Source: Brachyspira murdochii DSM 12563 (lineage in GTDB: Bacteria > Spirochaetota > Brachyspiria > Brachyspirales > Brachyspiraceae). Taken from it: 64,000 bases of DNA. Positions 24,314 through 29,072 of this stretch are shown one piece after another. Position 1 is the stretch's first letter. Each line of letters opens with the position of its first letter. The position numbers were made by a program, and so were the translations under genes. The stretch lies in the NCBI RefSeq assembly GCF_000092845.1, contig NC_014150.1, forward strand, positions 1,822,919 through 1,886,918. Direction: 5' to 3'. The notes beneath the pieces were generated by a model. The model was given only the letters and a program-made list of their open reading frames with translations. It did no database searches and was not told the origin of the DNA.

Positions 24314-24500
24314 GGGGGCTGGGCGGGCGGGCTAATTAGATTTTGAATAAAATTTGTATTATATTTTTTATAAAAAACCTTCTCTCTATAAAAAATTATA
24401 AAAAAAAATTATCAATTCTTGGCTTATTTTGCTCAAAAAATTTGTTTAACTAATATTTATATATTTTATTTACTTATAACAATTTTGGAGTATAATAATA
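24314..24500 (+). repeat. conserved upstream block of the first Rpn locus, with G-quadruplex-type motif
   Basis: The block starts with G5-CT-G3-C-G3-C-G3 (24314-24331), a canonical four-tract G-quadruplex pattern that is striking in such AT-rich DNA. The rest, down to the GGAG before the start codon, is nearly identical to 27933-28115 upstream of the second Rpn gene (shared segments include CTAATTAGATTTT, ATAAAATTTGTATTATA and GCTCAAAAAATTTGTTTAAC). The duplication therefore included the upstream DNA. Confidence 0.8.
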
Positions 24501-25421
24501 ATGCGTAGTATAAACAGAATGAACGATTATTTTGTACGCTATCTTTTAGGCTCTTTGGGTAATGAGGATATACTTGAGAACATAGTAAATGCTGTGCTTG
24601 AAGATTTGGGCTTTGAAACAGTACATAACCTGCAGATAATTAATCCGCATAACTTACCAGAGAATATTAATCTAAAAGAGTCCGTACTTGATGTAAAAGC
24701 AGTTACAAAAGATAAAAGAAAAGTTATTATAGAAATACAGCTTTCTGGAAATATAGACTTTTTGAAGAGAATATACTATTATATATCTAAGAATATAGTA
24801 AGCGAAGTAGAAGAAAAAGAGCCTTATGATATAATAAGCGAGGTAATAAGTATTAACTTTGTAGACTTTTATATGGATTTTAATGATGATGGTAAGCCTC
24901 ACAGATGTTTTAAGCTGATAGATACAGAAAATCCAGAGATTGTTTTGGATATGGTGCAGATGCATATAGTAGAAGTACCAAGATTTAGGAGAATACTAAA
25001 TAATGCTGATTTTGAAGATATTAAGAGAAAGAAAATATTATCTTGGATAGAGTTTTTTACAGCAAAAGATTTTGATAAAGTTAAAGATAAATTAAAGGAG
25101 GTAAATAATATTATGCCTAAAGTAATAAATAAATATGAACGTTTTATATCCAGTGAAGATGAGATGGAAGTTTACAATGCTAGAGATGCTTTTTTATACG
25201 GACAGACTTTAATGTTAAGAAGAGAGCGTGAAGAGGGTTTACAGGAAGGGAGGAGAGAAGGTATACAGGAAGGTATAGAGAAAGGAATGGAGAGAGGTTT
25301 ACAGGAAGGCAGAAGAGAGGAACAAATTGCCATAGCAAGAAGTTTCAAAAATGCTGGTATAGATATAAATATAATCAGTGAGAATACAGGGCTTAGTGTA
25401 GAAGAGGTATTAAAATTATAA
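24501..25421 (+). CDS. Rpn family PD-(D/E)XK nuclease (recombination-promoting nuclease / putative transposase), full-length
   Basis: 306 residues. The N-terminal part MRSINRMNDYFVRYLLGS is the Rpn/PDDEXK-transposase family start. The nuclease core has Asp64 (SVLDVKAV) and Glu78-x-Gln80 (IIEIQ), the family's variant of PD-(D/E)XK. The C-terminus, from residue 205, has a charged helix with four-residue repeats (EGLQEGRREGIQEG) and ends GIDINIISENTGLSVEEVLKL, an HTH-like tail. In E. coli such full-length proteins are toxic DNases involved in phage defence and are held back by their own separately translated C-terminal part. GGAG precedes the ATG. A paralogue is at 28116. Confidence 0.88.
   Translation: MRSINRMNDYFVRYLLGSLGNEDILENIVNAVLEDLGFETVHNLQIINPHNLPENINLKESVLDVKAVTKDKRKVIIEIQLSGNIDFLKRIYYYISKNIVSEVEEKEPYDIISEVISINFVDFYMDFNDDGKPHRCFKLIDTENPEIVLDMVQMHIVEVPRFRRILNNADFEDIKRKKILSWIEFFTAKDFDKVKDKLKEVNNIMPKVINKYERFISSEDEMEVYNARDAFLYGQTLMLRREREEGLQEGRREGIQEGIEKGMERGLQEGRREEQIAIARSFKNAGIDINIISENTGLSVEEVLKL
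25113..25421 (+). CDS. candidate internally translated C-terminal Rpn product (RpnS-like antitoxin)
   Basis: In frame within the full-length Rpn gene, ATG 25113 (Met205) is preceded by AAAGGAGG (GGAGG at 25097-25101, 11 bases before the ATG), a stronger ribosome-binding site than that of the whole gene. It would yield 102 residues, MPKVINKYERF to the end. Three lines support it: the site itself, the same site in the paralogue at 28728, and a separate downstream gene (25435) that starts at exactly this methionine. By analogy with RpnS proteins it may inhibit the full-length nuclease. Expression is inferred. Confidence 0.6.
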   Translation: MPKVINKYERFISSEDEMEVYNARDAFLYGQTLMLRREREEGLQEGRREGIQEGIEKGMERGLQEGRREEQIAIARSFKNAGIDINIISENTGLSVEEVLKL

Positions 25422-25434
25422 GAGGGTGGTATAA

Positions 25435-25707
25435 ATGCCTAAAGTAATAAATAAATATGAACGTTTTATATCCAGTGAAGATGAGATTGAAGTTTATAAC
25501 GCGAGAGATGCTTTTTTATACGGACAGACTTTAATGTTAAGAAGAGAACGTGAAGAGGGTTTACAGGAAGGAATGGAGAGAGGTTTGCAGGAAGGCAGAA
25601 GAGAGGAACAAATTACCATAGCAAAAAGTTTCAAAAATGCGGGTATAGATATAAAGATAATCAGTGAGAATACGGGGCTTAGTGTAGAAGAAGTATTGAA
25701 GTTATAA
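25435..25707 (+). CDS. free-standing copy of the Rpn C-terminal part
   Basis: 90 residues, starting MPKVINKYERFISSEDE and ending GIDIKIISENTGLSVEEVLKL, almost identical to residues 205-306 of the gene just upstream but with a shorter EG-repeat helix. It has its own ribosome-binding site (GAGGGTGG) and begins 13 bases after the upstream stop, so it is probably cotranscribed. It contains no nuclease core. It could be a truncated duplicate with no role, or a dedicated extra antitoxin. Bases 25708-25981 after it hold no gene that I recognise. Confidence 0.75.
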   Translation: MPKVINKYERFISSEDEIEVYNARDAFLYGQTLMLRREREEGLQEGMERGLQEGRREEQITIAKSFKNAGIDIKIISENTGLSVEEVLKL

Positions 25708-25981: not shown

Positions 25982-26038
25982 CTTTACCACTACACACAGA
26001 TCAATGTGATTTTGCAAAAATTACTGCGAGTGGTAAAG
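25982..26038. other. long-range inverted repeat in the gap before the Vsp-like gene
   Basis: A perfect 10-bp inverted repeat (CTTTACCACT and AGTGGTAAAG) encloses about 37 bases that contain a smaller CACA/TGTG pair. It could be a structured RNA or a protein site. The surrounding DNA (25708-26298) has no supported gene; a 63-codon ORF at 26088 lacks a ribosome-binding site and is left out. Confidence 0.45.
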
Positions 26039-26298
26039 CCCCATATATTAAAAAACAAAATGTAACTTTATTTTTAGCAAAATATAATTGTTTATGTGTT
26101 ATAGTATGTTATTGATTACCTATTTTCACAATAATATAGTATGTATACATATTATATGTGTAAAAAGTTTATTTCATAGTGATGCGTATAATTATATTTT
26201 TTATTTAATTTTATTTGACGAAGCGGATAATTTACTGTTTTTAGTGGTTATTGGGGGACTTTTAGACAAAATTTATTAAAATTTCACATTTATAAGTG

Positions 26299-27932: not shown

Positions 27933-28115
27933 GGGGGTGGGCGGGCGGGCTAATTAGATTTTAAATAAAATTTGTATTATATTTTTTATAAAAAAACTTC
28001 TCTCTATAAAAAATTATAAAAAAATTGATATTTTAGGCTTATTTTGCTCAAAAAATTTGTTTAACTAATATTTATATATTTTATTTACTTATAACAATTT
28101 TGGAGTATAATAATA
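27933..28115 (+). repeat. conserved upstream block of the second Rpn locus, with G-quadruplex-type motif
   Basis: Near-identical to 24314-24500. It begins G5-T-G3-C-G3-C-G3 (27933-27949) with single-base loops, which is even closer to an ideal G-quadruplex than the first copy, and ends with the same GGAG ribosome-binding site. Confidence 0.8.
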
Positions 28116-29072
28116 ATGCGTAGTATAAACAGAATGAACGATTATTTTGTACGCTATCTTTTAGGCTCTGTTGGAAGTGAGGATATACTTGAGAACATAG
28201 TAAATGCTGTGCTTGAAGATTTGGGCTTTGAAACGGTACATAACCTGCAGATAATTAACCCACATAACTTACCAGAGAATATTAACCTAAAAGAGTCCGT
28301 ACTTGATGTAAAGGCTGTTACCAAAGACAGCAGAAAAGTTATTATAGAGATACAATTATCCGGAAATATAGACTTTTTGAAGAGAATATACTATTATATA
28401 TCTAAGAATATAGTAAGCGAAGTAGAAGAAAAAGAGCCTTATGATATAATAAGCGAGGTTATAAGCATTAACTTTGTAAACTTCAATATGGACTTTAGCG
28501 ATGCAGGTAAGCCACATAGATGTTTTAAGCTGATAGATACAGAAAATCCTGATATTGTTTTGGATATGGTGCAGATGCATATAGTAGAAGTACCAAGATT
28601 TAGGAGAATACTAAATAATGCTGATTTTGAAGATATTAAGAGAAAGAAAATATTATCCTGGATAGAGTTTTTTACGGCTAAAGATTTAGATAAAGTTAAA
28701 GATAAATTAAAGGAGGTAAATAATATTATGCCTAAAGTAATTAATAAATACGAGCGTTTTATATCCAGTGAAGATGAGATTGAGGTTTATAACGCGAGAG
28801 ATGCTTTTTTATACGGACAGACTTTAATGTTAAGAAGAGAGCGTGAAGAGGGCTTACAGGAAGGAATAGAAAGAGGAATAGAAAGAGGTTTAAAAGAGGG
28901 TATAGAAAAAGGAATGGAAAAAGGTTTAGAAGAAGGAAGGAGAGAAGGTATGCAGGAGGGTATAAGAAAAGAGCAAATTACTATAGCTAGAAGTTTAAAG
29001 AATGCTGGTATAGATATAAAGATAATCAGTGAAAATACTGGGCTTAGTATAGAAGAAATAAATAAACTTTAA
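28116..29072 (+). CDS. Rpn family PD-(D/E)XK nuclease, second full-length copy
   Basis: 318 residues, about 95% identical by eye to the first copy over the nuclease core (Asp64, Glu78, Gln80 kept). The two differ mainly in the C-terminal helix, where this copy has a longer run of EG-type four-residue repeats (EGIERGIERGLKEGIEKGMEK and on) and a slightly different tail (GLSIEEINKL). This pattern, a constant nuclease with a variable C-terminus, is what has been described for Rpn families. It carries the same internal ribosome-binding site but has no free-standing C-terminal copy after it. Confidence 0.88.
   Translation: MRSINRMNDYFVRYLLGSVGSEDILENIVNAVLEDLGFETVHNLQIINPHNLPENINLKESVLDVKAVTKDSRKVIIEIQLSGNIDFLKRIYYYISKNIVSEVEEKEPYDIISEVISINFVNFNMDFSDAGKPHRCFKLIDTENPDIVLDMVQMHIVEVPRFRRILNNADFEDIKRKKILSWIEFFTAKDLDKVKDKLKEVNNIMPKVINKYERFISSEDEIEVYNARDAFLYGQTLMLRREREEGLQEGIERGIERGLKEGIEKGMEKGLEEGRREGMQEGIRKEQITIARSLKNAGIDIKIISENTGLSIEEINKL
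28728..29072 (+). CDS. candidate internally translated C-terminal product of the second Rpn gene
   Basis: ATG 28728 is preceded by AAAGGAGGTAAATAATATT, the same bases as in the first copy. It would give 114 residues, against 102 and 90 for the other two; the differences are steps of 12 residues, as expected if units of the four-residue EG repeat are gained or lost. Expression is inferred. Confidence 0.55.
   Translation: MPKVINKYERFISSEDEIEVYNARDAFLYGQTLMLRREREEGLQEGIERGIERGLKEGIEKGMEKGLEEGRREGMQEGIRKEQITIARSLKNAGIDIKIISENTGLSIEEINKL

Follow-up and report, generated by a model that had tools for sequence, protein, structure and literature searches.

The locus at positions 24,501 to 25,707 carries a full-length Rpn nuclease gene (rpnL), an in-frame rpnS nested within it and, directly behind its stop codon, a free-standing copy of the C-terminal part only, and is probably a chromosomal Rpn toxin-antitoxin locus with a gene-within-gene layout, in which the nested product would act as the antitoxin. 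Comparative evidence at the nucleotide level, drawn from two reading frames, points to a selected internal start in Brachyspira, and the rpnE-ypaA arrangement of Escherichia coli is extended to the spirochaetes. The locus also presents a puzzle, in that free antitoxin copies differ in repeat number from the adjacent toxin, though the repeat number reportedly decides the inhibition partners; the free copy could be an antitoxin that does not match its neighbour, or else a spare tail. The features considered here, numbered along the window (the whole stretch of 64,000 nucleotides that was analysed), are listed below with the evidence for each.

24314 to 24331, plus strand: G-tract GGGGGCTGGGCGGGCGGG, about 187 bases upstream of rpnL; the homology between dispersed rpn copies begins at or near the tract.
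24501 to 25421, plus strand: rpnL, full-length Rpn nuclease (predicted toxin), 306 aa; PF12784, TIGR01784 and catalytic residues.
25094 to 25101, plus strand: AAAGGAGG, predicted Shine-Dalgarno (SD) site of the internal start; codon-pair conservation and anti-SD pairing.
25113 to 25421, plus strand: rpnS, nested C-terminal antitoxin-like open reading frame (ORF), 102 aa, an RpnS homologue; in-frame ATG with conserved SD.
25251 to 25286, plus strand: three four-residue units (RREGIQEGIEKG) that rpnL/rpnS have and the free copy lacks; alignments.
25422 to 25429, plus strand: GAGGGTGG, putative ribosome-binding site of the free copy; sequence and anti-SD pairing (-8.8 kcal/mol).
25435 to 25707, plus strand: free-standing rpnS copy, 90 aa; ORF, dN/dS against the neighbour and AlphaFold model.
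28116 to 29072, plus strand: second rpnL paralogue, 318 aa, with a nested start at 28728 (114-aa tail); ORF, domain match and alignment.

The positions given in the first-pass annotation for rpnL, the internal ATG, the intergenic gap and the free ORF were all found to be correct on re-checking, the last base of the rpnL stop codon being 25421. The rpnL product matches PF12784 (E 1e-36) and TIGR01784 (E 3e-36), both far above the cut-off, and contains the PD-(D/E)XK nuclease domain of these families. The catalytic set D, D, E-x-Q, R is intact as D9, D64, E78, Q80 and R90, which correspond by motif to D11, D63, E82, Q84 and R94 of E. coli RpnA, residues whose mutants are altered in activity (PMC5350276). 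The locus is identified as Rpn because of the nuclease family match together with these catalytic residues.

An in-frame start with a ribosome-binding site precedes the C-terminal domain of rpnL, as judged from the sequence and its conservation. The Lys-Glu pair that builds the SD is encoded by AAG-GAG in all the 20 Brachyspira homologues compared, while the expectation from codon use is 4%, Lys and Glu in these rpn genes being encoded mainly by AAA and GAA (AAG 17%, GAG 24%). In a sister subfamily Leu-Gly-Gly-Asn replaces Leu-Lys-Glu-Val, yet AGGAGG is kept in another reading frame. Since AGGAGG persists in two reading frames, nucleotides rather than residues appear to be conserved at this site, and such preservation would be hard to explain otherwise. 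Across the genus, AGGAGG or a 5-nt part of it is found before the internal ATG in 23 of 23 intact genes of the M-x-KVI-N/D-KY subfamilies, compared with an SD match of at least 4 nt at 22 of 291 other internal Met codons; the homologues in this count, as in the count of 20, are related genes and not independent events. Selection on the internal start at the nucleotide level, far beyond chance, is well supported by these comparisons, and the earlier proposal that the internal start is functionally meaningful is borne out by the codon pair and by its counterpart in the second frame.

Against a generic anti-SD, the predicted pairing energy is -13.0 kcal/mol at the nested start and -5.9 kcal/mol at the main start, with the value for the free copy (listed above) lying between the two, an order that would favour the antitoxin over the toxin. 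All the 11 M-E/K-E-V paralogues (e.g. L017, L029) carry a Met at the equivalent place and have no AGGAGG-like site. An internal promoter for the small product was considered and rejected, promoter-like sites being at the chance level (9 found, 10.8 expected), and the search for a known RNA element returned no match.

In E. coli, rpn genes are reported to give rise to RpnL, which is toxic, and to a nested RpnS, which inhibits RpnL by binding to it, phage protection being reported for RpnP2 only (Zhong et al. 2023, PMC10327210). In the mechanism proposed for the Brachyspira locus, RpnL (24501) would be a nuclease toxin and RpnS (start 25113, whose ribosome-binding site is predicted to be the strongest of the three) its antitoxin, obligately cognate because both share one tail; RpnS would bind via the long repeat helix and thereby silence RpnL. 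A duplication starting at or just before the internal SD would have added a further RpnS (25435) after the stop codon, with translation possible from its own site or by coupling, and the nested and free tails would then have diverged by whole four-residue units, three of them at this locus.

The free copy starts with an ATG 13 bases after the rpnL stop, at the equivalent methionine, and makes up, together with the nested copy, a direct repeat spaced by 322 bases in which long stretches are almost identical. When aligned with the six close tails of the genome it shows the highest identity to the tail of its neighbour (about 96% over the aligned positions), and over the 76 codons shared by these two there are 9 synonymous and 4 non-synonymous differences, which correspond to dN 0.022, dS 0.24 and dN/dS 0.09, a low ratio that may owe something to gene conversion with functional paralogues as donors. 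Among the codon changes private to the free copy, 4 are synonymous and 1 is non-synonymous (p=0.016 if 3:1 is expected under neutrality). Because private substitutions are present, the free copy is not an assembly duplicate, and its pattern of substitution indicates that it is neither brand new nor decaying and that it is coding and constrained.

These values bear directly on whether the free copy could be a decaying remnant with no role, left by tandem duplication or by a deletion between rpn genes. The genus does hold C-terminal-only copies that resemble remnants. A flgK-adjacent orphan is an intact ORF of the 91-aa class in one species (L089, 2469-2741) and has two stops in another (L091), with a shred of the nuclease domain upstream in both, and the clear orphan RpnS ORFs resemble what is left of a gene once its nuclease part has been lost. 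At 1362690 of the present genome (G000, locus L022) a G-tract and the rpn upstream region run straight into the last 41 tail codons, and this copy is a promoter-to-tail deletion remnant. The other short C-terminal ORFs of the genus, considered as possible free-standing antitoxins, were mostly frameshifted or truncated full genes. The present genome, a single contig of 3,241,804 bp, was found to contain about 25 rpn loci in addition to fragments in searches with the full protein and with the free copy, among them the second full gene of the window, which the first-pass annotation does not mention, and the RpnS-start pattern identified about 91 starts in 26 Brachyspira genomes, with a single pair within 450 bases, namely this locus. 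The restriction of the tandem pair to one genome of the 26 is in keeping with a remnant, and the same low incidence counts against the explanation preferred below. The purifying selection and the excess of private synonymous changes nevertheless make a remnant unlikely, the more so as the copy is old enough for decay and its ORF is intact with a ribosome-binding site. Derivation of the free copy from an rpn gene resident at the right flank was also rejected, since no rpn motif was seen there in one relative (G015) and the single right-flank motif in another (G008) is accounted for by the rpn copy that follows downstream.

The AlphaFold model of the free copy (alignment of 32 sequences, mean pLDDT 73) has a helix at residues 15-68 followed by two short helices. 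Its best match in the PDB is 7TH0, the E. coli RpnA-S, with a probability of 0.99, an rmsd of 0.9 A, a TM of 0.83 by target and 39% identity, the E-value of this structural match being only 0.56 and the matched domain comprising 41 columns; the same entry is weakly matched in the PDB sequence searches (E 0.18 and 0.09). Most likely, then, as far as the model goes, the free protein keeps the three-helix fold of RpnS. Other assignments were set aside: the free copy has no Pfam match (for instance, to DUF4351), the bromodomain and pentatricopeptide matches in the PDB sequence searches reflect weak or repeat-driven helical similarity, and the likeness to the PADLOC 'putative invertase' and to FliH is confined to the charged helix.

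The tails differ in length by a regular step. RpnS tails are known to vary by four-residue units (PMC10327210), and all the 24 intact nested tails in the genus have a length of 4n+2 aa, within a range of 78-114 aa. The free copy lacks 36 bp (12 aa, exactly three four-residue units) relative to the tail of its neighbour. Its length of 90 aa is the commonest in the genus and is missing among the close full-length copies of this genome, whose tails are of 102, 106, 106, 110, 110 and 114 aa, so that its unit count equals neither that of the neighbour (102 aa) nor that of the five other close paralogues (106-114 aa). In the case of RpnC, one extra unit in one partner led to the loss of inhibition (PMC10327210); the repeat-matching rule rests on this one protein and one added unit, and may not hold in Brachyspira.

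The common fold, the near-identity to the nested tail, the operon-like position with its own ribosome-binding site and the purifying selection would all suit an extra inhibitor of the adjacent RpnL, one that raises the antitoxin:toxin ratio with the difference in helix length being tolerated. Such a role is doubtful because the free copy is three units short and a single unit sufficed to abolish the inhibition of RpnC. The first-pass annotation had read the duplication as the origin of a dedicated inhibitor gene; a C-terminal gene that has its own start and a shorter helix and is under constraint is indeed present, but its service to the neighbour is questionable owing to the three-unit mismatch. 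The E. coli rpnE loci point in the same direction, since the nested and free repeat numbers are unequal in 9 of the 9 sampled loci that have both copies, the extra units (nested/free) in the nine strains being 0/1, 5/1, 5/2, 8/1, 8/4, 5/1, 5/2, 5/0 and 1/4. Random pairing predicts 0.6 matches among these nine loci, which suggests independence rather than avoidance of matching. Selection for cognate inhibition should, if matching is needed, keep the numbers equal, and the mismatch therefore counts against a simple extra inhibitor. All considered, that role appears rather unlikely.

The E. coli loci also bear on another reading, according to which the chief importance of the free copy lies in its DNA: by recombining with the nested copy it would swap or delete tails and shift both specificities together. 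In the single-copy strains of E. coli a free-type tail is fused to RpnE, with nested-type sequence before it in two of them (L175, L178), which implies either that exchange between copies occurs or that the duplication arose from such a gene. Fusions that lose the separate RpnS have also been reported (Zhong et al., PMC10327210), the direct repeats at the Brachyspira locus offer long stretches for such exchange, and the tails of this genome look mosaic when judged by eye. On the other hand, the single-copy state in E. coli could be ancestral, and a donor of sequence needs neither a ribosome-binding site nor a start, yet the free copy keeps both. A role mainly as recombining DNA is thus unlikely here.

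An RpnS variant with shifted specificity is the explanation that we favour for the free copy, tentatively and at somewhat less than an even chance. The free protein would have the RpnS fold, and its best partner would be an Rpn tail with an equally long helix and not the neighbour. Extended to free RpnS copies in general, the idea would be that they are as a rule non-cognate for their neighbours, with an unmatched helix, and act on other (for example, incoming or former) Rpn toxins or serve as spare recombining tails, a possible but doubtful generalisation. In the case of spare tails, recombination with the nested copy would change the specificity of toxin and antitoxin in one step.

The surroundings of the rpn copies were examined as well. 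A second G-tract, GGGGGTGGGCGGGCGGG (27933-27949), lies about 185 bases upstream of the second rpn gene (28116), and this tract and GGGGGCTGGGCGGGCGGG are the sole such runs in the AT-rich 64-kb window. A G-tract is also found at 4 of the 6 close rpn copies and at two decayed copies, and the homology among the dispersed copies extends from at or near the G-tract to at or near the stop codon. The left and right flanks of the rpn copies at 1306k and 1371k of this genome and at 24501 of the window lie in different places in related genomes, and from these sequence comparisons the rpn copies seem to be located at chromosomal rearrangement breakpoints. A mobile element with an empty site was rejected, since the joined flanks of two copies map apart in the relatives, which showed no empty site. 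An intergenic stretch downstream of the free copy (26032-26097, about 65 bp) recurs widely in related Brachyspira at roughly 80-90% identity and is without an Rfam match.

The nearest known counterpart of the locus is rpnE-ypaA of E. coli. The combination of nuclease, nested inhibitor and extra inhibitor was regarded as new in the first-pass annotation, a view that is refuted by the separate downstream RpnS genes already described, namely ypaA (rpnE_S) behind rpnE and a second rpnC_S behind rpnC (PMC10327210), and by the geometry of the K-12 locus, in which ypaA starts 12 nt past the stop codon of rpnE and the internal SD (AAAAGGAGAGATTAATG) marks the beginning of the duplicated unit. The small protein encoded by ypaA has been detected in K-12 by tagging (PMC10327210). 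Both loci consist of a full nuclease gene, a nested C-terminal ORF and a free copy that begins at the equivalent Met, with gaps of 12 nt in K-12 and 13 in Brachyspira, and in both species the nested and free repeat numbers are unequal. The Brachyspira locus, however, belongs to a different Rpn subfamily in a different phylum; the internal SD in the duplicated unit is unchanged in E. coli and has diverged to GAGGGTGG in the Brachyspira free copy; RpnE of K-12 is annotated as inactive, whereas the Brachyspira catalytic residues are intact; and the free tail is three units shorter than the nested one in Brachyspira but one unit longer in K-12. With RpnA (RpnA_L/RpnA_S, 7TH0) the locus shares the active-site residues, a nested C-terminal protein and, as modelled, a similar three-helix fold. 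RpnA_S is far shorter (a chain of 49 residues in 7TH0), the first helix of the Brachyspira protein being lengthened by four-residue units, and no free-standing copy is described for E. coli rpnA in the available part of the source, while one is present here. The Brachyspira locus thus adds a spirochaete case to the already known arrangement of nested and downstream rpnS.
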